From positions 124,001 to 188,000 of the forward strand of contig OW568867.1 of assembly GCA_938743325.2 (NCBI GenBank): DNA of 64,000 nt, given 5' to 3'. The DNA is from Pycnococcus provasolii. Lineage: Eukaryota > Chlorophyta > Pseudoscourfieldiophyceae > Pseudoscourfieldiales > Pycnococcaceae. Of the stretch, positions 21,493 to 50,626 are shown piece after piece (within the stretch, counting starts at the first letter, position 1; every line of letters starts with the position of its first letter). Both the position numbers and the translations under genes were made by a program. The notes beneath the pieces are model-generated. The model searched no databases and was not told the origin of the DNA. It worked only from the letters and a program-made list of their open reading frames with translations.

Positions 21493-21495
21493 TAG

Positions 21496-25676: not shown

Positions 25677-25745
25677 CTCCCTTGTCTAAGACCTGTACGC
25701 CCGTCCACAAGGGGGGACACGAGCCCGACTACCATAAGGAAAGGA
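25677..25745 (+). repeat. Diverged satellite unit, partner of 31637-31705
   Basis: This ~65-bp stretch (CCTTGTCTAAGACCTGTACG at its core) occurs in the same orientation at about 31637-31705, on the far side of the Ulp1-JmjC gene. It aligns with the 134-bp unit (GACCTGTACGCCC, then CACGAGCCC..ACTA for ACAAGTTCCCGACA), so it is an older subfamily of the same satellite. Confidence 0.65.
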
Positions 25746-26139
25746 AAGGAGACCTCAAACCTCTCCTCCTTGTACCTTTAGCCCTCCTTAGAATAGGGTT
25801 GTTAGAACCCTTAACCCGAATAGAAAGAAGAAAGAGCACCGACGACGACGACGACACACGAAGCACCACCACCACACAGCACACGAGAGTCCCGGCGGGA
25901 ACGCTGCCGTGGCTTCCACGCGCAATGCACAAGCATCGCGTCGGCGCCTGCTGACAGACTGCGCGCAGACGTGCTCACCACACTCGCTACCAGTGACAGC
26001 ACGAACGAGCACGTCGAGCGTGCCGCAGCGCAGCTCATTGAGGCGGGAGGCGATGCCGCTGTGCCACTTGCGCTCGAGCTTGGTGCGCACGCGGAGCGCC
26101 TGCTAGTAGACGTCACCGAAAGGGTCGCCGTGTACAGGT

Positions 26140-26929: not shown

Positions 26930-29900
26930 TCAACGAGCTCCAGCACCGCCCGCAGCTAGTGCCTCCGCCGCCGCCGCCCAGGCATGCATAGCAACCGCGC
27001 GAGCCTGAAGCACATCTTCCTTATGTGTGTGACCCTGCTTGAGACCGCGATAGTCGTCAGCGAGGTCCACCGCGAACTGTGCATTCTCCACAGACACGAA
27101 GTCGACCGCAATCTTCACACAAGGTCGCAGGTTACGCACCTGATGCGGGCATCGCGATGGCACGAACACGGCGTCGCCCTCGCGCTGGTAGATGCGCCAC
27201 GGAACAATGCCCGTCTCCTGCTTGAGCAGCGCCAGGTCATCCTTGCGTAGGTATACCAGTTGATCGTGAATCGGATGGTCGAGTACAGATTCGTCACGCA
27301 CGGCGGCGTCTGTCTCGTTCTGCGTCGCTGTGAGCACCACCTTGGTCGGGCCGTGGTACCAACGCCCTTCCGCTGCTTTCTCCTTGATCCACAACTCGAG
27401 CTTAGCAGCATCATTGCGGTGGAAGAGGTCCCAAACAGCCCCCACTTCGTCGTGCTGGCAAGGAAGATAGCTGAAATCCCTCTCCCCCTCCTCCTGAGCC
27501 TTCACCATTGCATCCGACTGAACATGCACAAGCAGGTTCACTGCATCTGCCATGTCGTAGTGCATCTTCGTCACACTGTCGCCACGGTCCTCGAATCCGT
27601 TTTTGCCCTCGCACGGCGCCTCGTCCGGGGACCCGAAGGCGATGTAGCACTTTGGCCCGAGGTCAGGTTGGCTCAAGTTCTGCGGAAACAGGCTGACGAC
27701 ATTGAACGGACCCTTCGGATTCGTGTACTCTGGCACGGGACACATCTCGTAGAAATCTGCCGTGTGCCGTGGCGCAAAATCGCGCATGTCACCATCCGGC
27801 GGCCAGTCCTTCAGCTTCAGCAGCTCCCTGACTCCATTTTTGCGCTTCACACCTCCTTGAAGGTAGTTGGTGAAGAACTCGCCCACCTGCATGCCAGTCA
27901 TCTCACAGATGTCACTGCACCGGATGATCGTCAAAGAGTTTCCCTCCTGTCGTGTCTGGCCTGGACGCGATTCGCGCGCCATGCGCCGCAGCACCCTCGG
28001 CGCCCACGACATTCGGCCGATGCACCGGCGCATGAGGATGGGCTCACCCTGCATCCATCTTTTGTGAAAGGCGGCAAACATCTCCGGATCAGTACGCTCG
28101 ACGAACTGCGGTCCATACTTCACGCCATCGGCGGTGCGTAGATTGCTCGGTTCCGGCTTGCCTTCGATGCCGTGCCGCATCTGCCACATCGTGGGTGAGA
28201 AGATGTTTTTGTGCAACTTCGCAGCATCAGCTGGCAAGCTTGCGAGAACGACGTTGCTCGTGTTGTCCACTTCCGGCGATCCCTCCTCGCCAGGATTGAT
28301 GTTAGAGACAGGCGTACAGATGGACGGCATGTCCGCGATGCGCTCACCGCGTTGCAGCACCTTCTTCGCCAGCGGAAGGCGGGGAAGTGTGGCAGGATCC
28401 GTATGTTTCGGCAAGGGTAGCTGAAGAGCCGCATCGAAGCGGCTGGCAGGCTCCAGTCCGCATCGCTTGAGCGACTTGACGAAATCCACCTCCTCCTGAT
28501 CAGCGTCCATTGTTTCTTGCATCGCTTGGACGCGTCTGATGAAGCAATCAGGACACAGCTCAGTATCAGGCGGTCCCTGCCCTTCCTCTTCCTCCTCTTC
28601 CTCTTCCTCCTCGTCGTCATCCTCGTCGTCGTCGTCGTCGTCGTCGAGGCCTTTTGCAGCCGGTGCTGCAGCCGCCATCGCTGCTTTCTCCTCCTCCTTT
28701 TGCTTTTGCCACGCCTCGATCTCCTTTTCGGTCGCCGGTGCGGAGTAGTAGTCGTTCCACAGCGACGTTCCACACGCGGGATTGCTGCAGATGGCGCGTT
28801 CGCCGTCGCCAACCGCATTGATTGTGCGCTCCGCAACCTGGTCAAGCGCATGGAGCTTTTGGTGCGCCAGCGCCGCCTCGTGCGCGCTCCTGGCAATTCT
28901 GGGAACGCACGTCGCCGCGAGCGCGTGTGCGACGTGTTTGGCGAAATCCTGTTTCTCGCCTTGTGGGATGGGCGGCAGTTCGCCGATGACGCCGTCTGCA
29001 TTTTCGTAGTACAACGCCGTCGCACCTGTGTCACGATCGAGCTGTTTTCCTGGAACGCCACGAAGGCACACGCGGCATGAGCACACGGCACGGCACTGTG
29101 GACAGCCTCCTTTCATGAATTCTATCCACCTCTTCTTGAGTTCTTCAGGTGTTTTGATGTTCCAGGCGTCGATGAGCGAGCTGTGGTGCAGGTAAATGCA
29201 CTTGGGGCAGACACGTGGGCAGGGCAGCGTGTAGACACGTAGGTTGAATTTTGACTTCTTTGACGTCGTCGTCGTCGCATTTCCAGTTTTCTTCACCTCC
29301 TTACCCTGGTTGGGGCACACGGCAAAGACGGGTGCCCGTCCTCTGCACCAGTGGCAGCAGCTCGTTGCATCGGACAGGTTCGCGTAGAGTTTCGCATTTT
29401 CGTTGATTTTCTCCGCGAGAGCTTTGCGTTCCTCTTCTGTGTTGTTTGATGTGTCGCTGGCGAGAATGTTTCTTTTGGCGCGTGCGAGCGGCAGTGGTGG
29501 TGGTTGTTGTTTTTGTGACTGCGACTGCGACTCCATTTTTTCAGCCATCCTGATGTGTTTCTCGCAGTACCTTTCACCGAATTCTGACTCCTTGTGGCAC
29601 TTTTTCCCGTTTGCCGCAACGAATTTGCACCTGTCGTCTTCCTGGCTTGCGTACGTGTTGAATGCCTGATTAGCTCGTGCAGCTGCGCGTCGCGTCGGCG
29701 GCGTGGATGTTTGCCATGTTTGTTGTGTCGACTGCTTTTGTGCTTCTTCTTTTTCCACTTCCGGCTTTTGAGAAGCTGCTGCTGCTGGTGCTGCTGCTGC
29801 TGGTGGTGGTGCTGCTGGTGGTGGTGGTGCTGTTGGCGGTTTGTTTGTTTTATTCAAACAACCTACTTTTTGGTCGAGCAGCTCGACGCACATCCGCACT

Positions 29901-31609
29901 CTCAAGTTGGGCATATCCCGCTGATCGAAACCGAAGTGCTTCGGCCGACCCATGCAGCGGCTCTCCACCTCAGCGTATGTCGCGGCGAACACACCGCAAT
30001 CCCATCCATTTCGCTGCTCCGGAATGTCCTGAGGGAAGAGGACGGGCCAGTTCTCGACGTCACTGATGTGCGTGTTCTCGCGCGTCCTCGCCTCGTCGAT
30101 CGCGAACTGCTTCATCGCCTCGAGACAGTCGTGGTCCTCGCTCTTGAAGCTGTCGTAGTACACGAACGCTTGCGCCTCGAGGTCGATCACCGCGCAGCAC
30201 CAGTGGTTGCCCTTGTGAATTGGCGCGATGATCTTGTCGCAGCTGTCGAACAACGTCTTGCCACCGTGCACCTTCGCGAGCTTCTTCGCGCGCGTCCACC
30301 GCTCAAGGTACGTGTACTTGTGACTGTCCTGAAAGAGCTTGTTGTAGAAACACGTATTGAAGAAGTGGCACCGAGGTCTTCTTCGACCACCGGGGTCACC
30401 GTCACGGCGCCAGGCGAGATCGCGATCCTGCAGGAGAGCGACGTAGCAGTTGATCACCTCGTCGTTCAGCCACCCCTGCTTGTGTAGCGTCGATAGGTCG
30501 CGCCGCGTCAAGTCAAGGCGGTCGCGTTCGTGAGAGCACATAATCTCCCCCCCATTGTTGGCGTTGATCGCGTCCAGGTAGCGCTCGCGGGCCACGTCAT
30601 CCAGGTTCTCGAAGTCACGCAGAATCTCGTCCTCGAGCTCCGTCTGCTCCTCCTTTTCCTTAGACAGCGAGGGCGTAGGCGGCACGCCAGTCCCAGCCAT
30701 GCGCTCACGCGTCAGAGCCTCCGCGCGCTCCTGCGTCAGCTTAATCTCCTCGTCGCGCGAACGCACCGTGGCTTTTGCGTCCACCTCTTGGCGGTGCAAG
30801 GAGACATTCTGCAGCCGCTCGAGGATTGCGTTGATGCGCGCGTTCGTCTCGTTGAGCTTCCGTTCACTCTCGACAAGCGACAGCTCAGCCTCCGACGATC
30901 CCGCTAATGGCGTCCACGTAGTTGGCTGCTGCTCCTGCTGCTGCTGCTGCTGCCTGTGTCTGCTGCTGTTGTTGGTGTCGTCCATGACGTAGCTCGCGAA
31001 GTCGTTGTAGTACGAGTACGGCGTTGTTGCTGCTGCTGTCGTCGCTGCCGGCGTGATTGTGGTTGGTGCAGGCGTGCGTGACGTCGCCCACCTCGACGCC
31101 AGAAGGGGTCTCCCAGAGTCTATAGCCCGCTCTCTTCTGTTCCTTTCGATGTCGCTTACCGGCTTGAGTCGTTTGCACACGTCGACGTCCACCGCCGTTC
31201 GAGGGGGACACCTTCGCGTCGACGGCGCAAAGTCCAGCCTGGTACCTGAGAGTGCTCTGTCAGTTGTCGCCACCGCCGCCGTCGTCGTCGCCTCGTCAAA
31301 AAGCAGGCGCCTCTTGCCCAACGATTGCCTGTACGAGTCGTCCGCGCCGCGCGCCTCCCCCACGGCGTCTGCGGCGCCCTCCTGTGGTGCTATTGGCGTT
31401 GGCGGTGGTGGTGGTGGTGGTGGCGGTGGTGGTGGTGGTGGTGGTGGTGGTGGTGGTGGTGGTGGTGGCGGTGCCGCAACCAACGCGGCGTCTGCGGCGG
31501 CCTCGCGGGCGGCGCGCTGGCGGGCGCGCTGGCGCTGCTTCTTCAGCGCCTCTTTCGATGGTGGAGGCTTGCCAAGTGGTGGCGGTGGCGGAGGCTTGTA
31601 TCGCACCAT
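26930..31609 (-). CDS. Ulp1-type SUMO/NEDD8 protease fused to KDM3-like JmjC demethylase
   Basis: A 1,559-residue unbroken frame. Residues 1-230: Pro runs and low complexity. About 230-330: coiled coil. About 360-580: C48 (Ulp1/SENP) protease, with LNDEVINCYVALL, His near 470 (GNHWCCAVID), and Cys near 537 (NGWDCGVF). About 690-720: a WRC-like CxxC..H zinc motif (RCKFVAANGKKCHKESEFGE). About 760-850: Cys-rich zinc region (CCHWCRGR, CPRVCPKC, CSCRVC) as in KDM3/IBM1 demethylases. About 960-1010: acidic run. About 1190-1510: JmjC domain with His-Tyr-Asp near 1349 (TKMHYDMADAVNLL) and distal His near 1488 (CPHQVRNL). KDM3 enzymes remove methyl groups from H3K9 with Fe(II) and 2-oxoglutarate; C48 proteases remove SUMO-type modifiers. 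Both sets of catalytic residues are present. I know of no standard family with this fusion. Confidence 0.85.
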   Translation of the reverse strand: MVRYKPPPPPPLGKPPPSKEALKKQRQRARQRAAREAAADAALVAAPPPPPPPPPPPPPPPPPPPPPPPPTPIAPQEGAADAVGEARGADDSYRQSLGKRRLLFDEATTTAAVATTDRALSGTRLDFAPSTRRCPPRTAVDVDVCKRLKPVSDIERNRRERAIDSGRPLLASRWATSRTPAPTTITPAATTAAATTPYSYYNDFASYVMDDTNNSSRHRQQQQQQEQQPTTWTPLAGSSEAELSLVESERKLNETNARINAILERLQNVSLHRQEVDAKATVRSRDEEIKLTQERAEALTRERMAGTGVPPTPSLSKEKEEQTELEDEILRDFENLDDVARERYLDAINANNGGEIMCSHERDRLDLTRRDLSTLHKQGWLNDEVINCYVALLQDRDLAWRRDGDPGGRRRPRCHFFNTCFYNKLFQDSHKYTYLERWTRAKKLAKVHGGKTLFDSCDKIIAPIHKGNHWCCAVIDLEAQAFVYYDSFKSEDHDCLEAMKQFAIDEARTRENTHISDVENWPVLFPQDIPEQRNGWDCGVFAATYAEVESRCMGRPKHFGFDQRDMPNLRVRMCVELLDQKVGCLNKTNKPPTAPPPPAAPPPAAAAPAAAASQKPEVEKEEAQKQSTQQTWQTSTPPTRRAAARANQAFNTYASQEDDRCKFVAANGKKCHKESEFGERYCEKHIRMAEKMESQSQSQKQQPPPLPLARAKRNILASDTSNNTEEERKALAEKINENAKLYANLSDATSCCHWCRGRAPVFAVCPNQGKEVKKTGNATTTTSKKSKFNLRVYTLPCPRVCPKCIYLHHSSLIDAWNIKTPEELKKRWIEFMKGGCPQCRAVCSCRVCLRGVPGKQLDRDTGATALYYENADGVIGELPPIPQGEKQDFAKHVAHALAATCVPRIARSAHEAALAHQKLHALDQVAERTINAVGDGERAICSNPACGTSLWNDYYSAPATEKEIEAWQKQKEEEKAAMAAAAPAAKGLDDDDDDDEDDDEEEEEEEEEEGQGPPDTELCPDCFIRRVQAMQETMDADQEEVDFVKSLKRCGLEPASRFDAALQLPLPKHTDPATLPRLPLAKKVLQRGERIADMPSICTPVSNINPGEEGSPEVDNTSNVVLASLPADAAKLHKNIFSPTMWQMRHGIEGKPEPSNLRTADGVKYGPQFVERTDPEMFAAFHKRWMQGEPILMRRCIGRMSWAPRVLRRMARESRPGQTRQEGNSLTIIRCSDICEMTGMQVGEFFTNYLQGGVKRKNGVRELLKLKDWPPDGDMRDFAPRHTADFYEMCPVPEYTNPKGPFNVVSLFPQNLSQPDLGPKCYIAFGSPDEAPCEGKNGFEDRGDSVTKMHYDMADAVNLLVHVQSDAMVKAQEEGERDFSYLPCQHDEVGAVWDLFHRNDAAKLELWIKEKAAEGRWYHGPTKVVLTATQNETDAAVRDESVLDHPIHDQLVYLRKDDLALLKQETGIVPWRIYQREGDAVFVPSRCPHQVRNLRPCVKIAVDFVSVENAQFAVDLADDYRGLKQGHTHKEDVLQARAVAMHAWAAAAEALAAGGAGAR

Positions 31610-31636: not shown

Positions 31637-31705
31637 CTCCCTTGTCTAAGACCTGTACGCCCGTCCACAAGGGGGGGCACGAGCCCAACTATCAAGTAGG
31701 GTAGT
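31637..31705 (+). repeat. Diverged satellite unit, right partner
   Basis: Direct copy of 25677-25745, extended on the right by AAGTAGGGTA as in the 134-bp unit. It lies 85 bases from a main array in the opposite orientation, so the two make an inverted junction. Confidence 0.65.
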
Positions 31706-31789
31706 ACCTTTTCCCCAAGCTCGCCGCCCTTTCCTCCCGCCTTTCCGGCGTCCGGAAAACCGGGGAGGGCGTCCGGAACTTACGGATTT

Positions 31790-32466
31790 TCTTGATAGAT
31801 CCACACAGGTGACCCACACCCCCCCCTACTAAGATACCCTACTTGGTTGTCGGGAACTTGTCCCCCGTTTTGTAGGGGCGTACAGGTCGAGACGACTGAA
31901 GACGCTCGATCGGTTTCGACCTTTTCTTGATAGATCCACACAGGTGACCCACACCCCCCCCTACTAAGATACCCTACTTGGTTGTCGGGAACTTGTCCCC
32001 CGTTTTGTAGGGGCGTACAGGTCGAGACGACTGAAGACGCTCGATCGGTTTCGACCTTTTCTTGATAGATCCACACAGGTGACCCACACCCCCCCCTACT
32101 AAGATACCCTACTTGGTTGTCGGGAACTTGTCCCCCGTTTTGTAGGGGCGTACAGGTCGAGACGACTGAAGACGCTCGATCGGTTTCGACCTTTTCTTGA
32201 TAGATCCACACAGGTGACCCACACCCCCCCCTACTAAGATACCCTACTTGGTTGTCGGGAACTTGTCCCCCGTTTTGTAGGGGCGTACAGGTCGAGACGA
32301 CTGAAGACGCTCGATCGGTTTCGACCTTTTCTTGATAGATCCACACAGGTGACCCACACCCCCCCTACTAAGATACCCTACTTGGTTGTCGGGAACTTGT
32401 CCCCCGTTTTGTAGGGGTGTACAGGTCGAGACGACTGAAGACGCTCGATCGGTTTCGACCTTTTCC
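31790..32466 (-). repeat. 134/135-bp satellite array, five units, minus orientation
   Basis: Units start (CGGGAACTTGTCCCCCG) at 31851, 31986, 32121, 32256 and 32390. Four spacings are 135 and the last 134, from one extra C in the C-run. The units are nearly identical, so the array was made or homogenised recently. Each unit has potential GGTCGA/TCGACC and CCCC/GGGG hairpins. Confidence 0.95.
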
Positions 32467-33735: not shown

Positions 33736-34446
33736 GTTAATATGATCATTTAATTCATTATTTTTCCCTCGCACAGACCCGTCCAGACCCCGTCCATTCC
33801 CTTATTTGCCCATCTGAATGCTTTCCTCCTCACCTCAATTAGCCAAAGGTGGCGGAGGCGGAATATCTTTCTTGGACCGCTTCGTCGGCGGTGGCGGCGG
33901 CGGCGGTGGTGGTGGCAGTGCTCGCTTATTGGAATAGGTGGTAAACTGTCAAATATCACTGAAATTTATGATGGGAAGACCCCATTATCCTCCCCTAGAA
34001 ACCTGCGAAAGCCTCCCGGAATTCTGACCTTTTCTTGATAGATCCACACAGGTGACCCACACCCCCCTACTAAGATACCCTACTTGGTTGTCAGGAACTT
34101 GTCCCCCGTTGTGTATGATATCTCGTTGCGAGATCGACAAGATCCATGGCAAGTCCATGACGTGAATGCTGCGACATGAGCGTGAGAGTGCGCGTTTGCC
34201 GCGTTATGTCGTCCCGTTACCCACTCCACACAGCGTAGCGACAACACAAGCTGCGAGCATGCGTCAACAACGACAAGAAAGGAGGGCCAATAAATGCGCG
34301 AGCGCGGGATGAACAATCGTCCGGCTATCAGGGCAGCCGGGAACAGAACTGGGGACCCACCAGGCAGAGAGAGACACAACGCCCGGAAAAATATCCAACC
34401 AACCCCTAACCCGTCCCCTCCCACCAACCCCTAACAATGAACGTCT
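33736..34446. other. Intergenic stretch with one satellite remnant
   Basis: No gene recognised. About 34032-34115 is a single, slightly diverged minus-orientation satellite unit. A (GGC/GGT) run lies at 33885-33922. The rest is unremarkable. Confidence 0.6.
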
Positions 34447-34775
34447 CAGAAAGGAAGAAAAAAGGGGTTTGGGTCTATCAAGAAAAGGTCGAAACCGATC
34501 GAGCGTCTTCAGTCGTCTCGACCTGTACGCCCCTACAAAACGGGGGACAAGTTCCCGACAACCAAGTAGGGTATCTTAGTAGGGGGGGTGTGGGTCACCT
34601 GTGTGGATCTATCAAGAAAAGGTCGAAACCGATCGAGCGTCTTCAGTCGTCTCGACCTGTACACCCCTACAAAACGGGGGACAAGTTCCCGACAACCAAG
34701 TAGGGTATCTTAGTAGGGGGGGTGTGGGTCACCTGTGTGGATCTATCAAGAAAAGGTCGAAACCGATCGATCCGA
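34447..34775 (+). repeat. 134-bp satellite array, 2.3 units, plus orientation
   Basis: Begins with AGAAAGGAAGAAAAAAGGGG, the same pre-array sequence found (reversed) at about 21118-21145 and at 25345-25365, then two full units and a third cut at the same CGAAACCGATCGA as the array at 25664. The shared cut point in two places hints at a defined unit end. Confidence 0.9.
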
Positions 34776-34815
34776 CGAGCGTACTATATCCCTTTCCTCC
34801 ACGTGAGGGAACCCA

Positions 34816-36005
34816 TTGCGCTCCACCCAATCCCCTAACCACCCACGTAGGCTCCTCCTCTCCCCTCCCCCCTCTCCTCCCCTCTTTTCTTTTAGTTTTC
34901 CGAGCGCGTGCTCGCTCGCCCTGCTTTCGGCGTTGTTCACCACCGCAGAAGCATACAGCGAGCGAAAGCCGTTCGAGTCTCACGAGAGCCACATGTGGGC
35001 AAAGAACAGCACGCACAAGATGTGCAGGCCCGTTGCGAGCGTCTCGCCTCTCGTGGGTCCCGCGAGCGGAGGTACCAAAGTTACGCTACAGCCGTTCCAG
35101 CAGCTGCCGGAAGACCAAAAGTTCTTCTTCTGCCAGTTTGGAGACACAACCCTCATCGCCGACTCGTTCTACACGATGCGCGGAAGGCCCGCGATCGTGC
35201 GCACGGATCCCCAGGGAACGGACAAAGAGTCCGTGCCGTTGCGCCTTAGCTACGATGGCCTGACGTTCACCGACACCGGCGTGGACTACCACTACCACAG
35301 CGAGCTGTCCATTGCCCAGGTGAGCCCAGCAGCGGGAACTCTCGCAAGTGGCACCGAGGTGATGCTCGAGGTGAGGGGAAAGCTTACGCACAGCAGCTTC
35401 AACGACACGTGGGCGACAACCGCGACGTGCCGTTTCGATGAGACGGAGGTGCCCGCAACGTTCGAGATCATCGAAGGCGACGAGATGTATTCAAAGTTCA
35501 AGTGCGTCGCACCTGCGGTCGTCAACGTGGGCGTGGTTGACCTGCGCGTGTCGCTCGATGGACAGTCGTACTCGAAGAACCGCGCGACGTACACGTACCT
35601 GTACTCGGCGAAGGCTGAGGAGGGCGAGAGTGCCGACCTTGAGATGAACCAGATGCCGCGCAAGTTCGGCGAGCCGACCGAGGTGGCTCCCACCGTCTAC
35701 CAGACGACGTTCTACGACTTCTACGGCTTCTACGAGTTCTCGCTCTACGACTTCTACGGACTCGTGTACGCGGCGGATGCTCACGACAGCAATGGAGTGA
35801 ACGACGTCTCAGAGCTGCCCGTGGCGTCGACGACGATCAAGATCTCGGAGCTTTGCATGGTGGCGCTGGCTCCCGCCGTGGGCCCTGCGACGGGCGGAAC
35901 GCGCGTGACGCCGAAGCTGGCGCGCGCGGTGCCGGAGGGACAGCAGCTTTTCTTGTGTAGGTTCGGAAGCTCCGTCGTTCTTGCCGACTCGTTCTTCACT
36001 GTAAC
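34816..36005 (+). CDS. Secreted protein with three IPT/TIG domains, 3' end lost
   Basis: About 397 residues from 34816. Residues 28-50 form a signal peptide ([15 protein letters not shown]). Three IPT/TIG immunoglobulin-like repeats follow, each starting with a P..G..SGGT motif: near 78 ([15 protein letters not shown]), near 173 ([17 protein letters not shown]) and near 355 ([14 protein letters not shown]). Between the second and third lies an odd Phe/Tyr-Asp repeat ([20 protein letters not shown]). At about 36005 the homology ends and the frame runs on by chance through AT-richer sequence into the NEDD8 fusion. A shuffled relative lies at 19222-19895. Extracellular or surface role is inferred from signal and domains. 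Confidence 0.65.
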
Positions 36006-36195
36006 AAAACATGAGGAAGGTATCCTCAAAAATCCACCTATAATGGAGGAATGTAACCTCCTAGTCAAAAATCTCGCGATTCTCTACCTCCTAGTAGGCT
36101 ACTGCCGAAGGGAGAAGTCGACGACCCTGCCACCACCAGCAAGATGGGTGGCAGGGCGGCGATGGCGTTTGCTGCGCCGCCAGCGCGGGGGAACC

Positions 36196-39100
36196 ATGAT
36201 TGTGGTGAAGACGCTCACGGGAAAGGAAATTCCAATTGACATTGAACCCTCGGACACCATCGAGCGAATCAAAGAGCGTGTCGAGGAGAAGGAAGGCATC
36301 CCGCCCGTGCAGCAACGCCTGATTTTCGATGGAAGGCAGCTGCACGACGAAATGACGGCAACGGAATACGGCATCGAAGGTGGCTCTGTGCTTCACTTAG
36401 TACTTGCGCTGCGTGGTGGCGGTGGCACCGCCGCGAGTGGCTCTGGAGGTGGCAAACCCAGCGCCGTTGTCATAGGAGCCATTGTGAGTGGACTCGTACC
36501 AACTGCACCCAATGAGTTCATAGTCAAGACCGCGCGTGGCATAGTGGAGAAACATACAGTACAAGGAGTCATAGACGCGTTCAATGGGAAACTCCTTGAA
36601 CAGACTGTACTCAACACGATAGCTCTCGCAGCTATCGTGGGAAACGTGTACATCATCCTACGAAATGATGTTTCCTTAATACAGTATGTCACAGAGTTTC
36701 ACAGTCAAAAAATATCTTTTGCCGAAAGGGATGCTTTCATTTCCAACCAATTTATGCATCTCGCGAAAACTTTGGTAGATAGTTGTCTACACTTTAATTC
36801 CTGGTTCGAGAGTAGGTGCGCTGATTATATGCGCAAGCGCGCTGTATTCAATAAAATGGTTTTTTGTGCGGAGGTTCACTCGCTCATTGAAGATGGAGCG
36901 CATTCAAATTTCTGGGATAAGGTGAATGTCTTCGCAGGCAATAACACATGGAAAACGCTTTATCACAAATATGATAATAGCGATAATGATGATAGTAGCC
37001 CTAACCCTGATAATGATGATAGTAGCGTGCCGTTGCCGCTACTCGTGGAGTTGCCGCCACCAAAACCTCGCACGGCCCACCCCAGGTTTGCGCCGGCGGG
37101 TCCGCAGCGCCAGGGTGCATCTGATACTTTCGAGCAACGTGAGGCCAACGAATGGTCTTTCGTAGCTATTGCGAACAGGAACCATGAAATTGGAAACGCA
37201 AAGGAGGCACTTGGAGAAGCAAGTACGACATCAGCCGACATCGTAGCGGAAGCGAAGGAACGCCTCAGCAAACCAAACAACACGACGCTTCACGAAGTCG
37301 TAGAACCGGCAGTAATCGCCCTTAAGCTCGCTGACGCTGACGCCGATAACATGAAGAATCTCGCTTTGCGTGTCCTTCGACACAACGTCAACGAGGATGG
37401 TGCCGGTGCCGGCATCCGCCACGCCCATACCAGGAGCAATCGACGCCAGGCGGCGTTTACGCGCGTGGGAGTCGCAGACGATGGGCTCGCGTACTTCATC
37501 GGCCAGAGCGCGAACAATGGAGAAGGTTATGCAATCACGGCGCTCGCTCCTACCACAAGTGACGAGAAAGATCTCGTCGCTGAATTGTTCAAACTACGCG
37601 ACAAGGCTGTTGCGCTAATGACGGACGTTGATCTGTGGCCGGATGATAAAGGACGTTTGGACAACATGGTGGTGATCCAAGCTGACCTAATGAATACCAT
37701 CAATCGGGGCGGCTTCGCCATGCACAGGGATCATGCTGGTAATGATGGCGCTGCGCAGACGCTAGAGGGCAACCAGGGGGACATGAACGTGGTCACCATC
37801 ACTTTTACTGTGAACGATGAGGAATCACATGTCCCGTACCTTGCCGTCGACGATGACAAGAACAACCAATGGGTTGTGCCACTTGAGGGTAAGGTGGTTG
37901 CTCACGCACAGCTTTGCTCGCAGAAGAACTTCAAGCACGGCGTGAAGTTGACTTGCCAAGGCGGGTGGAGGGTGACGTTCACGTTTAGGTGCTGCAAAAC
38001 AAACGGCAGCAATAACCTCACATGTGCACGAAAGATGTTACAAGATAGCAAAGATTCTTTTTTGCCGCAGCCACCCGGATCTGGGATCCGCACCAAGTCT
38101 TCCACTTCGAAAGCGAGGGTGCGTCCAAGCTCCAGTACGGAGGCTGGTGACTACGAAGAGATTCTCGTTTCACGTGCCCGAGGGAATGTTGATACACTCC
38201 CGAGTGGTCTTAAACCAGCGGCAGCTTCAAACCGCAACGGCTCGCGGGAGACGACTGCGCTTGTGGGGATGGAGAACCGTTTTCTGTTTGACGTGGACAA
38301 GGCAACCAAGGCACTCGCCAATTCAGGTTACGTCATGATCGTGAAGAATGACGTGCTGGAACCTATTTCGGGCAACCAAGATCGGCCTACCGTTTACGGG
38401 TGGCCCCTCACAACGCCATTGCCGGGCTCAATTTCGCTGGGGAAGAGTGGTGTCGAGCCAAGCGACGGAGCAAGTCAGCTGTACCAATGTGTCGGTTCAG
38501 GCGGAGTCACCTGTGTCAGGCTAGGCGTGTGTGACACGCGGAGCGAAGCTGCTAGCGCCACCGCGCTTGCATACGCGCTCAATTATGCGGGCGTGTTGAT
38601 GTCTCCCGCGACGGAAGCCGACATACGTCTTGCCTTCGCCCCGCTACTGACTGCTGCTAAGGCCAATGGTGTACGTCTAATCTTAGGCCAACCTGGTGGC
38701 ACAGACCAAACTGAGAAGATTGACAGCGTTGCTTCTGGTATCGTAGAGTCAACGCTAAGCAAACGTGACATCCAAGATGACAAAATACGCAAATTCGTCA
38801 TGAATCAGCGTCTCGATCACGTCCGCACAAGGGGGAATGCGGAGAAACCACGAAACCGCGAGGTCGTGCACAACAACGTGGACAGTGGGATGCCCATTCG
38901 TGTGTTTTCTTTCATGAGAAGTGAAAAAGAAATGACATTAAATGCACAGCAACTAGGTGTGGCTCTCGCCGTGTGCGCCGAGGCGGCACACATCATCCGT
39001 AGTGGGAGGTTGCCGTGTGCTTTGCCAAATTCTGTTGACAAAAAATTCTACGACAACTTGCATGCCTTGTTTAATGGCATCGACACGAAACGAGTGTTGC

Positions 39101-41379
39101 AGGAGTGGGGCGTCGATGAAGCACCCGATGAAGCATCGCTCGTACAAGCGAGAAATTCGATCAACACAAGTTTGTGTGACCACAATTGCGTGCGGAAGGG
39201 GCGGCTCCTCATCTCCACAGGAGCGTGGAGGGCGATGGAGGTGGTGACAGCTCGCCGCGACGATGACACTTCGACTGGCGCATTAACCACGACGGTGCTC
39301 GAGCCGTGGATACAGCCAGTGTGCAGAGACAGCGCATCGCACGGCAAAAAGGACAATCAACCTTTCCACGATCAGCCATCTCACCCACCACCTCCAGATT
39401 CAACTTGCACACTTGGCGCCTTCACGGCTGTCGTGGGCTGCGATGCCGCCAAATGCGTCACGTGCAAGGAGCAATTCGACGGAAACCCTGTACGAGACGC
39501 GAGGGTCGGCCTCTTCACACACCCGAATCGCGGATGTCTACTCTCTCTTCGGAGTTCGTCCGATGGTTGCCACGGGTGTGTCGTGTGCGACTCTAAGTGC
39601 GTCCGAATGTGCGCAAACAACACATGTGCGTGGGGCGCGGCTTGCACCGAGCACGCCGACGTTATCTTCGACAAATCAGGGTTTTGCGTTTGGTGCGGAG
39701 GCGGCTCAACACTCGCTAGGGCGCACTGCACGGCGGCTCACGTGTTACGAGCAGCCGAACTCGATTTCGGGCCGGTAGTGCCGGCTAACGTCACGGTGGC
39801 TGATGACGTCGCGGACAAGCTAGTTGAGACACTACAGAGAGTAAAATCCTCAGACTCAATCTTGCCCTACTTGAATGACAATGTGGGCAGCACACTGACA
39901 CTCTCGATCGACCAGGTGATGCAAAACCTAACATCACCTTTGCTGCGCCGTAACCTACATGACGAACAAGACCTGGCTCCTGCGAAGGTTGCGCTGCAAG
40001 ACGCTAGCATCTTGGAAACGTGTTCGTTAACCCTGCGAGCGCTTGGCCGTGACAACATTAGGGGTGTGAATATACTCACTGCAATAAATGAAACGGCGAA
40101 GGAACTCGCTGACCAATTGGCAAATATTTACGGTTCACTACATAGGACCGAATCGAACGGCAAAGTGCTCGCCGCCGAGATGGACACTATGGGCAAGGTT
40201 GCCGAGGCTGTGGAGAGAAAGCTCGCCGGGCATGTGGTGGATGTGATGAACAAACAGCTTTCAATCCGCGCAACCGGAAAATCCGATCAAATCGAGTACG
40301 ACAAGACATGTCTTTTTCAACAAACGACACCCCCTCAAATTGGAGATGTTGGTGTGCCGATCTTTAGCAAAGCCGATCCTGTGATGATCTACGCCAAGGA
40401 AGTCCTGATGAAGTACACGAAAAACTGCGAGCCATCTGAGAAGATTGCGGTAGCCGCGATCGTCGCATCCGTCGCCACGTACCTTGGCGTGCACGACGGA
40501 GACTACGGTATGAAGGAATTCATGAAATCCGTCGAGTCCGACTCGCAAAACGCCGGCAGTGCCGGGGCGGCAAGAGGAGTTGACTACTTGGCCAAAAACG
40601 TCTCTCGAGCCATGGAAAATGAGGGCGCCGAATGGAGTTGCGCACCTGGGTACGCCAAAAGGTTCAACGACAACACTGTTAACGGCGGTCTTGGTAGGAG
40701 CATGCGAGCACAGCTCAAACCAGGAGCAGACAACCTTTTGAAAAGGGTGGAAAAGGTGTACAAGGTCAATGAATCGGTGCCGTCGCATAACAGTGGTGTC
40801 TGGAAGGACGTCGCGAGCGCCGTGGGCGCCACTGGTGAGACGTTCGTCCAGTTCAAGGTACTCAAGGCTATGGGTTGGCTGCTCGAGCAAGCCAATGAAT
40901 ACGACATCGCGGGGGCAATCCGGCGATCGTGGGAGGGCCGGAGGGCCGGATCAGGCGCCGAGACGGGCGCTCTGCACCTCGTGTACAGCGGCTTTGCAAG
41001 CACACCCGTGGGGCGGACTACGCCTCGGACGAGCCTCGACAAGGTGAACGGCAAAGGGGTTGCCCAATTGCTCGTGCCACTCTGTGCTCGGATCAACGCA
41101 ATCCTACGTGGCGCGGGGCTATTCGACCCGCATACAGAGTTGCGCCCAATCACACCAGGTGAACTCGAAGAGTTCCTCTGCGACGCTAGAAAAGAACGCG
41201 TAGAACTAGCGGTGCGCAACGGGTACGCTGTCGAATTTGTCACCGGGAAAATCGCATCGTCGACCTCGGGGTTGAAGCGCACCCGAGACGATGAGGTGAA
41301 TGGCCTCCAAGAGAAAAAGTCGCGTAGAGACGACGATGAGTCCGAAATGGAGGAGGACACCGAGACGGAGGACTGCTGA
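36196..41379 (+). CDS. Giant NEDD8-fusion protein with AlkB-like 2OG-Fe(II) oxygenase and zinc region
   Basis: 1,727 residues from the NEDD8 Met. Residues 1-76 are NEDD8, not ubiquitin: [20 protein letters not shown] and the ending LALRGG with Ala72, the residue that distinguishes NEDD8. A Gly-rich link follows. From about residue 90 the DNA becomes less GC-rich and no longer resembles host genes. Residues about 505-600 carry an AlkB-like double-stranded beta-helix: His510-x-Asp512 (MHRDHAG), strands [10 protein letters not shown], distal His581 (FKHGVK) and Arg598 (RVTFTFR). About 1080-1180 is a Cys/His-rich zinc region ([26 protein letters not shown]). The remaining ~550 residues are helical and unrecognised, ending in an acidic tail and TGA. 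The upstream frame is open to the IPT gene, but the NEDD8 Met is the natural start. It looks whole. Confidence 0.7.
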
Positions 41380-41403
41380 AAAGTAACGAAATTTTATTTT
41401 CTT

Positions 41404-42354
41404 TTATTTTTTTTCCAAGCACATTCAAGCCCAACTCAGGCGTCACGACGCCCACGCCCGCACGCTCCGCGCGACCGATCGTGATCTTATCATTCGTCGC
41501 CATGCCCCCGCCGATCCACGCGCCCCACTCCAAGATCGGCACCTGCTCGCCACTCGCATGCGCGGCGTGCGCGGCGGCGTCGAGCGCGGCATTCTCGGCG
41601 CGGTAGTTGGACTGCCCCGGCGAACTGAGGAACACCGCCAGCGACGAAAACGGAACCTAGAACCTGTGCCGATACCGCATTCGAGCGCCGAACTTGCGCA
41701 GCATCTGGTGCATCTCAAGGTCGGCACTCTCGCCCTCCTCAGCCTTCGCCGAGTACAGGTACGTGCACGTCGCGCGGTTCTTCGAGTACGACTGTCCATC
41801 GAGCGACACGCGCAGGTCAACCACGCCCACGTTGACGACCGCAGGTGCGACGCACTTGAACTTGGAATACACACCTCGTCGCCTTCGAGGATCTCGAACG
41901 TTGCACCAGCCGCCGTGAACTACTCGCCGTCGAGCGAGAAGAGAAGCGCGACGTTCTCACGTGCCGTGCCCGGGTGCGCCGTGCACACCACTGCCAGGCT
42001 TGCCGAGTCGGCGGTGAAGTAGAACGAGTCGGCAGGAACGACGGAGCTTCCGAACCTACACAAGAAAAGCTGCTGTCCCTCCGGCACCGCCGCGCGCCAG
42101 CTTCGGCGTCACGCGCGTTCCGCCCGTCGCAGGGCCCACGGCGGGAGCCAGCGCCACCATGCAAAGCTCCGAGATCTTGATCGTCGTCGACGCCACGGGC
42201 AGCTCTGAGACGTCGTTCACTCCATTGCTGTCGTCAGCATCCGCCGCGTACACGAGTCCGTAGAAGTCGTAGAGCGAGAACTCGTAGAAGCCGTAGAAGT
42301 CGTAGAACGTCGTCTGGTAGACGGTGTGAGCCACCTCGGTCGGCTCGCCGAACT
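41404..42354 (-). pseudogene. Second copy of the PKS KR scrap and IPT paralogue
   Basis: Matches 18945-19895 base for base over nearly all its length, including the frame change and the TAG (here 41920-41922). The KR part is 41404-41681 and the IPT part 41681-42354. As in copy 1, neither part has a start codon of its own. Confidence 0.75.
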
Positions 42355-42473
42355 TTGGGGATATCCCCAAGTGGAAGTACCGCAACCAGGAGAAACCCGA
42401 AATCAACCCTGACATACCACGAGCTCTGGACGAGCTCCCCCATTCTTCGGGGGTGCCAGGAAGGTCCACGGGG

Positions 42474-42530
42474 ACCAAGAAAATCCACATTAATGTGGAT
42501 TTTCTTGGTGATACGTTATCTTGATAACGT
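42474..42530. repeat. Second copy of the palindrome cluster
   Basis: The 36-bp palindrome (42474-42509) and the 18-bp hairpin after it are unchanged from 20014-20070. Confidence 0.85.
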
Positions 42531-42908
42531 GATCTTTTTTTTCTTTTCTCTTTTTTTTCTTTTTAGACTTCTTTTCGTAAGAGGTGTCAGTCCTCTGTTT
42601 GTTTTTTTTAGGATGTTTTTCTTCATCCATATGCAAAAAAAAATCTTTCTTTTTATTACAAAGTTACAAACCACCCACTCACTGCTCTTGCTCTCACGTG
42701 CGCGCTGCGTTCGATGGCATCTGCGACGGTAGCGCCACGACGACCCGGCGAGGTGCACATTCCTCACCGACGCCGACGCCGACGGCACCACCACCATCAC
42801 CGTCGTCGTCATCAGCGGCAGCGGCAGACGACAGTGGGAATGACACGGGAGTGGGGGGGGGGGGGGGGGGGGGGGGGGCGAGGGGATGCGAAACCCTAGG
42901 CTTGCCTA

Positions 42909-43038
42909 GATTGTGCTGCGCCGCCGCGTAGCCCCGCGCAGCCGCCTGCTCGTAGCAGTGTGCCGCCAGCGCAGGATCAGCGGCCACGCCCAGACCGTGC
43001 TGGTAGCAGTGCGCGAGTCCTGCTACGCGTTCATGACA
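42909..43038 (-). pseudogene. Second copy of the Sel1-like repeat scrap
   Basis: Same one-and-a-half repeats as at 20461-20590, between shortened poly-G tracts (26 and 25 bases). Confidence 0.65.
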
Positions 43039-43195
43039 GGAGCAATGAAAGAATGAGAAGGAAAAGGAGGGGGGGGGGGGGGGGGGGGGGGGGAGGGGGC
43101 GAGAAATCCTCCCACGAGCCAAACTAGGTCGGAAGGAGGGAGAGTGAGAGAGTCCCGATTCTGCTGCTTCGGGAACGACTTTTCCTTTTTGTCGG

Positions 43196-43938
43196 GGAAC
43201 TTGTTGTCGGGAACTTGTCCCCCGTTTTGTAGGGGCGTACAGGTCGAGACGACTGAAGACGCTCGATCGGTTTCGACCTTTTCTTGATAGATCCACACAG
43301 GTGACCCACACCCCCCCTACTAAGATACCCTACTTGGTTGTCGGGAACTTGTCCCCCGTTTTGTAGGGGCGTACAGGTCGAGACGACTGAAGACGCTCGA
43401 TCGGTTTCGACCTTTTCTTGATAGATCCACACAGGTGACCCACACCCCCCCTACTAAGATACCCTACTTGGTTGTCGGGAACTTGTCCCCCGTTTTGTAG
43501 GGGTGTACAGGTCGAGACGACTGAAGACGCTCGATCGGTTTCGACCTTTTCTTGATAGATCCAAACCCCTTTTTTCTTCCTTTCTGGAGAATGGAATAAT
43601 TGAGTTTTAGCATGGTCCTAGTGGTGCAAGACCAAGGGCGAATCCCCAAAGTGGTCGGGGGCGTGCCGACCAAAAATTAGTGGGGCAGTTAGTGGGGCAG
43701 ACTAAATCGCCCGTTATAACAGGAGAGTATTTCTAGGAAGCACGACCTGAGTGCCCGTACTCTCGTACCGGTTTGGTGGAGGGCCGACCTATCGCCCCGT
43801 TGTTCTCCGCCGACCTAACGCCCCGTTGTGGAGAGGTCCTCCTGGAGGTGATCGTTTTTTCGCCACCTCCAGGAGGACCTCTCCTGGAGGTGGCGAAAAA
43901 ACGACACCATCTCCGCCATCGCCATCACCACTCACCAC
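43196..43938 (-). repeat. Second copy of the left inverted repeat, without its partner
   Basis: Copy of 20750-21492 including satellite units, subfamily-B repeat and hairpin. The right arm was not copied because the duplication stops inside the protease gene at 45371. Confidence 0.85.
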
Positions 43939-44274
43939 CTAGTCACGTATCTTTTCGCCGTTCCGTACTGCGTGTCGCTGATGGTCATATCGTACGCGCT
44001 GACGGACTTTGCGACGGTTCCCGCGGCACCTCCGACGCGGAAGAACCACCGCGCCACCTCCGGTGTGCACAGTTTTGTCAATATAGGCTTTAGATGTAGT
44101 AGTGGACAACAGTTGAACGCCGCAATACAATGATGAAGTCGGAGGAAGGATGGTTGGTGTTTGCAAGCCTCAAGTCAACACGCACAATACGATCAATCAT
44201 CGCTGGCGCCGTGCCTCTCGAGGTGAGAGTGTGGAGTCACCAAAACACGCAACACGCTGCCGCTGTTCTTCAGG

Positions 44275-45371
44275 ATGATGATGGTGATGAACTCTGCTGC
44301 TGTGATGTCAGCCGCTATTTCCCTTATCATCATGCTCACATCATCACAAGCCACGCTCACTTTTGCGGCGGACATGAACGAACCAGTCATGGCCAACACG
44401 CCCGTCGCACCAAGAACGGATACCATGATCAAGGCGATCGTCAACGGAGTTACCACGCCACCTGACAAAATTCAACTCGCCACGTGGGACAATACCTTGC
44501 TGGAGTCGAATGCGCGTGAAATTGAGAACGACATGGCGAGGCGCACGGAGCTCGAGGAGGCGTTGTCCGCGAATGGAGGTGTCGAGGCGACGAACGGACA
44601 GGAGGGAACGTACGTGCGTGGTGCGTCTAAGCCACCGATGGCGTACGGCGTGCCTCTGGAAATTGGACCGAACGGCGTGGGGTCGAAGGACAACGGAACG
44701 CACTACCAGCTGTTTGACGGCGCACACATCCGGAAGATGATGATTGATGCACCACAGACTACGTCGCTCACGATCCACTTCAGCGTGTTTTATATCCCAC
44801 AGTGCGCCGATGGCGCGTGCGACCTGTTCATCTACAGCAACGAAGGGACGACGCTGTACTACACGCACGACGACATTCGCCCTGATCGCAAGTTTGTTTT
44901 GTCACGCCGCCCATCCACGGCGACCGCGTGACGATCGAGTACTACGAACGATTCAGCCACGATCCGCCGATGCGCTTGCACATCACGAGCGTTATGCAGG
45001 GATTCCGCGACGTGAGCGTGCGCAGCGCTTCGTCGACGACGGAGGAGACGTCGACGTCGATGTCGATGATACCGCGTCTGCAGGATGTGTACAACATCAC
45101 GGACGACCAGGACGGGGTGATCGCGAAGGATCCTCACGGAGACAGTGGACTGTGCAACAACGACATCACGTGCCAGCTCGGCGACGGCTTTGACAAGGAG
45201 AGGCGTGCCGTCGTTCAAATTCTCACGGGAGGCACGAGTGGACAGGCTGTGTGCACGGGAACACTGCTCAACACGCAGGATAGCACGAAGCAGTACGTCA
45301 TCACCGCGCACCACTGCCTCGGCGACTCGGGCGGGCAGAGCGTCGACTACTGGGGATTCCTCTTCAATTAC
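44275..45371 (+). pseudogene. Truncated second copy of the serine protease gene
   Basis: Signal peptide, pro-region and the start of the protease domain through the catalytic His are kept, with the same frame change as copy 1 (near 44902). At 45371 the reading passes into the antisense strand of the SNM1 copy, so Asp178, Ser261 and the C-terminal domain are missing. A chimeric frame continues to 45557 but cannot be an active enzyme. Substitutions against copy 1 are few (for example an Arg for His and a Leu for Ser in the pro-region). Confidence 0.8.
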
Positions 45372-46227
45372 GGTGGAGTACGTGTGCCGCTTGCTCTTCA
45401 GCTCTGCGGCGAGGTTCTTGAAGTTGAGACGCCAGATTGGGCACACGTGAAGATTCGTTTCCCCGGCATTGGTGGTCCACCACGGCTTCTCCTCGCTTCC
45501 AAAGACGCAATCGCAGACGAGCTTCTTGTCGTTGGTCACACAAACTTTGCGTCCTAGTCGCTGAGCCACCTCCCGCACGACGCGCTCCTTGCCAAGTGCG
45601 TACGTTCCAAATAGGAAAAGGGTCGATTGCGACCTGAAAGTTTCCATCTGTACTGCACTCACGACGTACTCGACGAGCTCACGCTGTGGCGCGAACGTGT
45701 GCTTGGGCTCGGCGTACGTCGTGTCAAGCACAACGCGCATGCGTGTTCCCCTTGCCGATGCCTGTGCGGCGGCGGCGAGGTGCGCATTCGCCTGGAATGC
45801 CGTGGCGTCGTAGCGCATGTCACCGGTGTGCAGCACAAGCCGTCCTGACGGCAGCCGAAAGAGCAGCATGGCTGCCCCTGGGCAGTGGTTCGCATCGACT
45901 AGCGTGACGGTGATCCCGTCGTCGATAGGCGTGGGCGTATCTAGCGGCAAAGAGCGCACATAGCTGGCATTCACGCCCACCTTCCTGGTGACGAGCTGCG
46001 CGGTGGCGTGCGTACAGTAAATCGTGCCTTCGTTGAATCCTTTCGTGAGGCCCCCGTAGTGGTCGCTGTGAAAGTGCGTCAGGAAGAAGAGTGGTGTGAC
46101 TTGTGTCCCTCCGAAGTGTGCTTTCAGCCACCTCCTCTGTTTCGCCTGAAAGCAGTCGACGACGACGCGTGTTCCGTCGAGTGGCATGCACCACGGTGGA
46201 GGCTGTTGTGATGTGTTAGTCTTCTTC

Positions 46228-46258
<31 letters not shown>

Positions 46259-47345
46259 CAGCGGCGGGTTGTGCTTGAGGAGGGGCGAGCGGCGGTTTTT
46301 CCAGCCGGCCTCCAAACCCAAGTTGCATTTGTATGGTTGTATTTGTCGTTGTTGTGTTTTTGAGTTTCTTTTTCTGCGGCGACGAAGAGGCTGTGTTGTT
46401 GTTGTTCTGACTTTTTGACTTGGGCGAACGGGCCGCCTTGATGAAGAGCTGACGTGTCGTTAATGACGTGACTCCGAGTTCAGAGAGGTCGTCATCCGTC
46501 AGCAAAGGCAGGACGTCGTACGTGATATCTTGTGCTTGGAACACGTCAAGGAGGTGCGTCAACGACAATGAGGAGAGGAATTCTCCTAAGAGTTCGCGGG
46601 GTAGCCTTTCCTCTTCTTCTTCAACTTCTTCTGGTGCGATACCGTCGGCGGGTAGAACATCTTTGGATTTATCACTGTCGTCGCCACGTAGTCCGGCATG
46701 GTGAGCCTGAGGCTGAAGAAGGTGTGACTCCTCCTGAAACATCTGCTGTAAAGGTGGTCTGTCCCCCGTGCGGTCTGCTGAGCGGACACTATTCTGATTA
46801 GGAAACGTATGTTTGCTTCCCAGGCCCACAGGTGGTGTAACGACGGAGGAACGAATGAAGTGACCACCACCACATGTGGAAGGGAAGTGCTCACCACCAG
46901 GACTCCTCCAAGGATGATGTTGCTGCAGAGGAGGCACGACTCCTCCTCCTCCAACTCCTCCTCCTCCTCCTCCTCCTGACGACATTGACGACATTTGAAT
47001 CCCCCCCTCATGTTGCTGCTGACTTCCCTGCTGAGTAAGAGGAACAAGAGGTCGACCACCGTGACCATAGACTCCATGACTGGCACCTCTCCAAGGACGC
47101 AACCTAAGGTTAGACGACTCATACTCATCATGGGCATGGGTTGAAAGCAGGCTGATCCCTCCTCCTGTGGGATCATAAGGAGGAGCATGTGCATCATCAT
47201 AAGGAGGAGCCTCATGACGGTGCGCCGCCTCCTCTTGAGGCTCCCTCCCTGACCAAGTTCTCCCTGAAGAAGAAGGATTGAAATCCAAAGAAGGATGCCG
47301 AGACAAATGTTGACCACCACGCTGCCAGGTGCCATGGCCCGACAT
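45371..47345 (-). pseudogene. 3'-truncated second copy of the SNM1-type nuclease gene
   Basis: The start, low-complexity N-terminus (10 codons shorter in the Gly-Val repeat), SAM domain and metallo-beta-lactamase core with its HxHxDH are kept. The last ~95 codons, including the YSEHSSFPEL segment of the DRMBL region, are lost at 45371, where the frame continues into antisense protease sequence until 44859. A fusion protein of 828 residues is open on paper, but loss of the DRMBL end should destroy function. Confidence 0.8.
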
Positions 47346-48444
47346 TTCACTCGTGAAGGCCGGGAGTAAACTTGTTCCTCGGAGGATTTATCCGGAGAGT
47401 AGGAAAGTACAGGGGTCGCAAAAAGTTAATTTCCCTATGGGAACAGTGATAACTTTGTGATAACCGGTCAGAATTTAGTGATCTTTGGTTCTATCGAACT
47501 GGTATAAACTAGAGCTAACTCTAGAGCCAAGCCGCGTCTCCTGGCGACGTCTCCATAAGGCTGTGCTGACAACTAGGGTTACGTTAGGGTTCTATGGTAT
47601 TTTTCATTTCCCGACCTGTGGGAGATCAATCCCCCGGTCAGGTTTTTTTCGATCAACCTCCCCCCGTACTGGTTTTCCTTGCACCCTGATTCTGCCCGGA
47701 ACGAATAGTGTTAAGGTCGGATGTAAATCGGATGGTATGTAAATCTTTTCTTGGTATGTAACCATGACTGCAGACTGGAAAAAAGTAACTAAGAGTAGAA
47801 TCGAGAAATATCAAGAACCTGCACAACCTAAAGGCCACCCTGGAAAGGCACTTGCACGATCTGGAAACTCGGGGCTCACGTTCAAGACCGCTCGAACCTC
47901 CCACCTGGACAAGTCTTACTGTAGTGGATGTACGAGTACAAGCACACAGGCGCGTGCCACTTGTGAACTTGTACCTCGGAACGTAAACTCGTTCCGCCCT
48001 GCGGCATCATCATCCTCGTCACTGGGATCCCTAACCCATCGCCATTACTTTTTCGTGCAGGTATGTATGCCTTTGCTTGTCTGTCCGTTTGTCTTTGCTT
48101 GTCTGTCTGTCTGTCTGTGTGTGCGTACGCGCGCGCGCGCGCGCGCGCGCGTGTGTGTGTGTGTGAGCTGTTTTGTTTTGTGTGTGTGTGTCCTTTTGTT
48201 TGTTCGTGCGTGTCATTGTGTGATGATGGGAGTAGGGTGCACACACCATGGCCATTAGACATGCCTGCCTTACCCGTTCCCTAAGACCACCCTACCTGCC
48301 CGTAACCTAACACCACCCTACCTTCCCTTACTCACCACAACCTCACAACAACAACATCAACAACATCAACAACAGGTACGTTTAAATTGTGTGTGTTGGT
48401 GGGGTGTTTTTTTTTGGGTTTTGTTTTTGGTTTTTGTTTTTGGG
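47346..48444. other. Inverse copy of the 6624-7722 spacer
   Basis: Same microsatellites in reverse ((CG)n and (GT)n at about 48127-48167). No gene recognised. Confidence 0.6.
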
Positions 48445-50558: not shown

Positions 50559-50626
50559 AAAAAAAATCCCTTAAATTAAATCCCTTAAATCTCTTAATCC
50601 CTTAAATTCCCCAATAAAACTAGCAG

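Follow-up and report, generated by a model that had tools for sequence, protein, structure and literature searches.

NEDD8 normally occurs as its own short precursor or in ubiquitin-NEDD8 pairs. Such pairs are found in plants, mosses and algae (PMC3968751), and in these plant and algal genes NEDD8 is the last unit of the chain. A broader habit of algae, seen in Bigelowiella and Guillardia, is the in-frame attachment of a ubiquitin-family unit, mostly at the N-terminus, to an unrelated partner, with hypothetical proteins among the partners and entries of up to 832 residues; ubiquitin-NiSOD is a known fusion of this kind (PMC6332867). In pestiviruses, a ubiquitin-like unit taken from host mRNA, either ubiquitin or NEDD8, has been inserted ahead of a large protein, where it provides a processing signal (PMC8310069). 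Here we describe a gene in Pycnococcus provasolii that combines features of these systems. It lies at positions 36196-41379 (forward strand) of the window, by which we mean the whole analyzed stretch of 64,000 nucleotides (contig OW568867.1, positions 124,001 to 188,000), part of contig C7 in a nuclear genome of 32.3 Mb and 46 contigs. The gene, hereafter the giant, carries NEDD8 in frame before a protein of ~1,650 residues. It thus shares its general layout with the algal ubiquitin fusions, but its partner is far larger, NEDD8 stands in for ubiquitin, and the unit is intronless and preceded by a remnant of a ubiquitin tail; it also differs from the ubiquitin-NEDD8 genes in that NEDD8 is followed by another protein. 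NEDD8 is not mentioned in the main text of PMC6332867, and a survey of titles and abstract openings in the literature on AlkB, NEDD8 and ubiquitin fusions, mobile elements and algae contained no NEDD8-oxygenase fusion. The giant is best read as a new variation on the ubiquitin-fusion habit of algae.

The giant is a genuine, unusual fusion gene. Its frame runs open for 1,727 codons. Over the same positions, 71 and 100 stops interrupt the remaining forward frames, and 47, 31 and 76 the three on the reverse strand; at the local base composition, the chance of a frame of this length staying open is ~1e-33. A first-pass annotation of the window had reported this unbroken frame as beginning at NEDD8. 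The length stands and the beginning does not, because the same frame is open 5' of NEDD8 back to 34816, giving 2,187 codons when counted from a TTG. As this upstream stretch is not only open but also matches the TIG domain (Pfam E 4e-6), translation may start at NEDD8 or further upstream. An A stands at -3 of the NEDD8 Met (AACCATGA), whose equivalent in the ubiquitin-NEDD8 gene of the host is internal. The GC content at codon positions 1/2/3 changes from 0.65/0.41/0.56 (codons 1-150) to 0.51/0.33/0.46 (codons 101-250), confirming the compositional shift that had been placed just after NEDD8. Likewise, the Cys/His-rich region described earlier is real, with 18 Cys or His in the 100 residues from residue 1087, versus 4.5% over the entire protein.

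Residues 1-77 match the Pfam ubiquitin family (E 7.9e-26) and are closer to NEDD8/RUB than to ubiquitin. Among the best 60 of 250 PDB matches, the best natural single-unit chain was RUB1 (1bt0, 122.5 bits), and NEDD8 chains scored 113-121 bits versus ~92-98 bits for single-unit ubiquitin; we compared single-unit chains, multi-unit chains scoring higher by summing their units. Ala-72 and the C-terminal RGG are kept in the sequence LALRGGGG, in agreement with the annotation of a full NEDD8.

In the host, NEDD8 is encoded by the second half of a ubiquitin-NEDD8 gene that lies on contig C31 (minus strand, ~547.6-548.2 kb) and has the same layout as the ubiquitin-NEDD8 (RUB1) genes of plants and algae (PMC3968751, PMC3215745), with an intron inside NEDD8; this gene would be the direct source of the unit in the giant. 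The intron, an 87-nt GT-AG intron located after the QQ codons and two bases of the next codon, is precisely absent from the giant, and on either side of it 131 of 148 and 96 of 107 bases are identical (89-90%). Directly 5' of the NEDD8 Met, 17 of 18 bases are the same as in the host ubiquitin tail. A local alignment of the upstream 195 bases with the ubiquitin unit scored 15, not above shuffled sequences (maximum 18.5, n=300); we count the tail match because it is collinear with the NEDD8 match and touches the ATG. At the other end, the homology extends as far as the last glycines, the point at which the host gene terminates. The two NEDD8 units share 66 of 77 residues (synonymous divergence dS 0.285, nonsynonymous divergence dN 0.078, dN/dS 0.27), and their differences are unevenly placed: a 53-nt run in the tail is identical, 23 of 26 differences precede it and the remaining 3, after it, fall in glycine wobble bases. 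Hence the processing tail is unchanged and the body has drifted. Given the exact loss of the intron together with the ubiquitin-tail remnant, capture from a spliced ubiquitin-NEDD8 mRNA is the simplest account and most likely the origin of the unit; the donor may have been this species or a near relative. The capture suggested by the first-pass annotation is supported and made more specific, the captured unit being an intronless copy of the host gene that includes the end of its ubiquitin unit.

According to the mechanism that we propose, a piece of spliced ubiquitin-NEDD8 mRNA would have been joined to a large orphan protein via cDNA or RNA recombination, and NEDD8 would serve as a leader in front of it. 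A peptidase acting on the C-terminus of NEDD8 or ubiquitin, whether a C12 hydrolase or a C48 enzyme of DEN1-like type, would cut after LRGG and free a large protein with the N-terminus GGTAASG, which could then demethylate or hydroxylate nucleic acid or protein. Candidate peptidases are present, as the genome contains two C12 and eight C48 matches over cut-off, one of the latter within the window. Moreover, the same genome encodes a ubiquitin-NiSOD fusion (C16:121821-122042 and downstream; Pfam Sod_Ni E 2.8e-29) with the junction LRGG-HCQVPCG, where NiSOD follows LRGG directly, so that a cut after LRGG would make His its first residue. By analogy with this fusion, the NEDD8 of the giant is probably a removable leader. 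That an enzyme of this type can remove NEDD8 from a downstream protein is illustrated by human SENP8, which cleaves Chlamydomonas NEDD8 off a C-terminal GST partner (PMC3215745). Together, the C12 and C48 candidates and the ubiquitin-NiSOD fusion keep the earlier idea of a protease-freed leader plausible.

The partner appears to contain an oxygenase-like domain. H510, D512, H581, R592 and R598 line up with the AlkB domains of the same genome, reproducing the HxD...H and RxxxxxR pattern. A profile built from 8 aligned sequences of the 11 AlkB-domain matches in this genome gave 9.0 bits for residues 425-625, above all 2,000 shuffles (best 6.0). When the profile was run over 693 windows from 202 frames of seven regions, the domain came second only to an open reading frame (ORF) on C36 (9.1 bits), which we take to be an oxygenase resembling prolyl-4-hydroxylase; once overlapping windows and the copy of the giant on C31 were set aside, the next score was 7.2 bits, for an unplaced frame (scan window 981). 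With hhalign, the domain reached P 0.0027, whereas three other parts of the giant, used as controls, gave 0.25, 0.47 and 0.47. A strict version of the motif, defined post hoc, occurred in none of 5,000 shuffles. These comparisons make membership of the 2-oxoglutarate (2OG)/Fe(II) oxygenases likely.

Taken together, the data argue for a cleavable NEDD8 leader, derived from a spliced mRNA, on an orphan protein with a probable 2OG/Fe(II) oxygenase (AlkB-like) domain, a composite reading to which we give an even chance. Several points weigh against it. For the leader, the frame is open 5' of NEDD8, so NEDD8 may sit inside a longer protein, and position 51, which is critical for human SENP8 (PMC3215745), is His in the giant and Gln in the host NEDD8 (numbering by offset from the PDB alignment). 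The joint between NEDD8 and its partner (within 36294-36959) is found in no other copy and therefore rests on one place in the assembly. Transcription of the fusion and its cleavage are steps that we infer, as are the capture route in detail, the catalytic activity and the substrate. For the oxygenase-like domain, the whole giant reached 4.8 bits with the AlkB profile, level with the better shuffles of its domain, the hhalign probability was just 11%, and a loose motif appeared in 663 of 5,000 shuffles. Pfam reported no oxygenase family on the whole giant at E<=1; with residues 486-605, PF03171 reached E 0.19 (12.5 bits versus a cut-off of 23) and was outscored by the unrelated PF21160 (E 0.072). 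Finally, in ALKBH5 an N-x-Y pair (Asn-193/Tyr-195) steadies 2OG (PMC9289625), and in the giant (N500-T-I502) Ile replaces the 2OG-stabilising Tyr. With N-x-I at this pair, the domain may or may not be AlkB in the narrow sense. The AlkB-like label of the first-pass annotation is accordingly upheld by the HxD...H...R residues and a modest profile signal, but not by a Pfam call.

As the annotation had stated, most of the remaining protein could not be placed: residues 78-424 and 626-1727 matched no family over cut-off in Pfam or NCBIfam. TmoB, PF21160, prfH, ATP_synt_b and other weak matches of the giant (Pfam/NCBIfam E ~0.03-0.2) were taken as chance and unrelated. Scans with short peptide patterns, which reach close relatives only, found no relative of the giant in prokaryote genome contigs, and none in viral contigs for the whole giant, four parts of it or ORF1031, an orphan protein of the window described below. 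By tblastn, phage records yielded no relative, with four Salmonella phage matches at E 3-9 alone. The PDB held no relative either (best E 0.03 for the whole giant and 0.61 for the oxygenase-like domain), and PHROGs returned two unknown families with E 0.004 and 0.035. The negative therefore applies to these collections, no search of other eukaryotes or of metagenomes having been made.

Genome searches by protein and by DNA revealed one full-length copy of the giant, along with a number of fragments. On C31, one fragment corresponds to window positions 35990-36293 (99%) and another, elsewhere, to 35990-36198 followed by 37502-38915 (100%); on C5, the fragments correspond to 38572-39819 and 36960-37119 (100%). 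A match on C10 was ruled out as a second gene, as it consists of two non-adjacent scraps of 78 and 53 bp (38992-39069 and 37198-37250; 94-95%) that have become joined. Of eight junctions inspected on C31 and C5, seven have 1-3 bases in common, in one case when read by eye across two mismatches. The remaining one contains a 19-base filler, and the pattern is as in end-joining. The copied blocks, ~11 kb on C31 and ~17 kb on C5, derive from 20.5-44.9 kb of the window and include the same flanks and pieces of ordinary genes, which identifies them as segmental duplications.

These fragments bear on an alternative that is less likely but deserves to be weighed, namely that an undescribed mobile or viral element has the giant as its main protein and took NEDD8 from host mRNA to release the downstream protein in pestivirus-like manner, and that the window holds the sole full-length copy found. 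The captured host sequence is indeed intronless, the partner has no family over cut-off, and copies broken by deletions at 99-100% identity (C31 and C5) as well as a two-piece relic (C10) are scattered in the genome. As the annotation noted, some mobile elements and RNA viruses have AlkB domains; they are known from RNA viruses and from a Gypsy lineage of orchids (PMC9289625), and a NEDD8 insertion in a pestivirus is cited in PMC8310069 (Baroth et al. 2000). Of the 53 rows compared for codon adaptation, the giant also has the fourth-lowest value, beside ORF1031 and close to a Gypsy pol from C5. The codon reference set included the giant and ORF1031, which makes the test conservative; some of the 53 rows are duplicates, others cover parts of the giant or frames that may be spurious, and the lowest is an unplaced 414-codon frame on C31. 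However, two copies of an SNM1-like host gene stand seventh and eighth lowest in the same list, and a low value would suit a gene from an element or virus, and a host gene with weak expression as well. Pfam and NCBIfam detected no transposase, reverse transcriptase, integrase, polymerase or replicase domain in the ORF, and the viral contig scans, which reach close relatives only, were blank, as was a search for the capsid family PF04451, although its positive control gave no match either. Clean termini were not seen, the inverted fragments at 34444-35995 and 41686-43590 being scrambled and non-colinear (no dedicated target-site search was made), and the C31 and C5 copies carry flanks and gene pieces along with them. 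The core of an undescribed element that the first-pass annotation envisaged thus fails to emerge, its copies being segmental-duplication fragments or the small C10 relic. In sum, a mobile or viral origin is possible, and the low codon adaptation and scattered relics lean towards an element without proving one.

As in the pestivirus insertions (PMC8310069), a ubiquitin-like unit from host mRNA precedes a large protein, yet the giant resides in nuclear DNA and no viral gene or replicase was found with it. As in the orchid Ty3/Gypsy elements with AlkB (PMC9289625), a possible AlkB-type domain lies in a repeated segment, yet no long terminal repeat (LTR), gag or pol belonging to the giant was found, and the cofactor Tyr is not kept. 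A more elaborate and quite speculative scenario, which we regard as improbable, would make the giant the central protein of an RNA-templated green-algal element (an endogenised RNA virus or unknown retroelement) that took NEDD8 and the ubiquitin tail from a spliced host mRNA and relies on host NEDD8 proteases to free the AlkB-type protein, with ubiquitin-S27a on C2 as a second capture. At that C2 locus (~1251.5-1259.5 kb, minus strand), ubiquitin and the start of ribosomal protein S27a lie within one very long open frame (reported as 2,802 codons; 2,078 were read, the frame running past the stretch examined), after kelch/DUF2341 parts and before integrase-repeat-like units below cut-off; judged by its sequence, it may be a second ubiquitin-family capture in a giant frame. 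ORF1031 (12887-15982, forward strand) encodes an orphan of 1,031 residues, of which a cut-out stretch is YqaJ-like below cut-off (E 0.053); it is second lowest in codon adaptation, and short relics of it lie at C36:196.9 and 200.4 kb (45% and 57% identical). The pol frame on C5 (30570-36824), of Ty3/Gypsy type, encodes reverse transcriptase, RNase H and integrase together with a PHD finger at its C-terminus; visual inspection also suggests a possible DNA-methylase-like tail.

A further alternative, which we consider unlikely, holds that NEDD8 is a permanent ubiquitin-like domain docking the giant to the neddylation or proteasome machinery. Its body is changed at 11 of 77 residues, with Lys lost at positions 3, 47, 53 and 56, indicating that it is not maintained as a free modifier, and the open frame upstream would suit an internal domain. 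On the other hand, the tail read by proteases is the best-conserved part of the unit, and an apparently flexible stretch of 11 residues directly follows LRGG, both favouring a leader that is cut off. Finally, a chance juxtaposition of a retro-copied NEDD8 in frame before an unrelated ORF, or a mis-join of the assembly, might be imagined in a patchwork of copied fragments where the joint occurs once, but is improbable given the single frame over 1,727 codons, homology that reaches the last glycines and ends there with the host gene, and no repeat of >=60 nt reported at the joint.

The giant is surrounded by a mosaic of repeats (Table 1), which we infer to fit repair by template switching. Within repeat R', a polyketide-synthase KR fragment is encoded by bases 28-296, for which C30 has seven matching sites (86-87%); bases 299-968 have a match at C7:793 kb (91-96%). 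A 64-bp piece of R' recurs at dispersed sites in at least seven same-orientation pairs 7.5-11 kb apart, an LTR-like spacing, and in one further pair 14 kb apart in opposite orientation; since 40 of 61 candidates were scored, the pair count is a minimum. Most of an SNM1-like gene lies on a 7.6-kb segment that is present as a near-perfect inverted duplication (2093-9733 and 45365-52980); the frame of the second copy lacks the DRMBL part. An element bounded by R (18929-22925) and R' as long terminal repeats was rejected, because R' stops (45372) inside a protease gene that continues in R past 22925 and overlaps the inverted SNM1 segment by 8 bp. Copies of a 134/135-bp tandem repeat lie on both strands at 20831-21100, 25341-25774, 31652-32461, 34447-34880 and 43062-43547. 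A frame at 26930-31609 (minus strand), separated by 4.6 kb from the giant, encodes both a Ulp1 (C48) peptidase domain and a JmjC domain (Pfam E 2.4e-29 and 5.8e-12); two clean deletions interrupt its C5 copy. Elsewhere in the genome, light-harvesting genes form arrays on both strands with equal profile scores (C31:133-143 kb and 360-366 kb), the amplification being possibly recent; the genome has 51 light-harvesting protein matches, one query being closest to Lhca3-type chains of chlorophyll a/b plants and algae (best 7yca_3) and the other to 9vfj chains, followed by Lhca2- and Lhca4-type chains, from which we read the host as a green (chlorophyll a/b) alga.

Table 1. Features of the giant and its immediate surroundings (positions in the window)
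Feature	Positions	Strand	Evidence
Upstream extension of the giant frame, with TIG domain; 35662-35995 belongs, in inverted orientation, to a fragment family with another copy at C7:793 kb	34816..36195	+	ORF list, Pfam, repeat comparison
Ubiquitin-tail remnant, 17/18 bases shared with the host ubiquitin unit (3' end), encoding ..RGGT before the NEDD8 Met	36178..36195	+	DNA alignment
NEDD8/RUB unit, 77 codons including GGGG, intronless	36196..36426	+	Pfam, PDB sequence comparison, host gene alignment
Region between NEDD8 and oxygenase-like domain, residues 78-424, no family over cut-off	36427..37467	+	Pfam/NCBIfam
Likely 2OG-Fe(II)/AlkB-like domain, residues 425-625: N500, H510, D512, H581, R592, R598	37468..38070	+	motif, profile, hhalign
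Residues 626-1055, no family over cut-off	38071..39360	+	Pfam/NCBIfam
Cys/His-rich stretch, residues 1056-1195	39361..39780	+	residue count
C-terminal ~530 residues, no family over cut-off; tail basic then acidic; stop 41377-41379	39781..41379	+	translation, Pfam/NCBIfam
Repeat R', direct copy of 18929-22925; patchwork of PKS KR fragment, gene fragment also at C7:793 kb, 64-bp dispersed piece and 135-bp array	41388..45372		repeat comparison

Should the giant belong to an element, it would represent a nuclear parallel to the pestivirus capture of the same modifier. If the reading of NEDD8 as a cleavable leader is true, NEDD8 can, like ubiquitin, be recruited as a removable leader, and the giant would be a natural substrate for the little-known NEDD8 processing enzymes of plants and algae.

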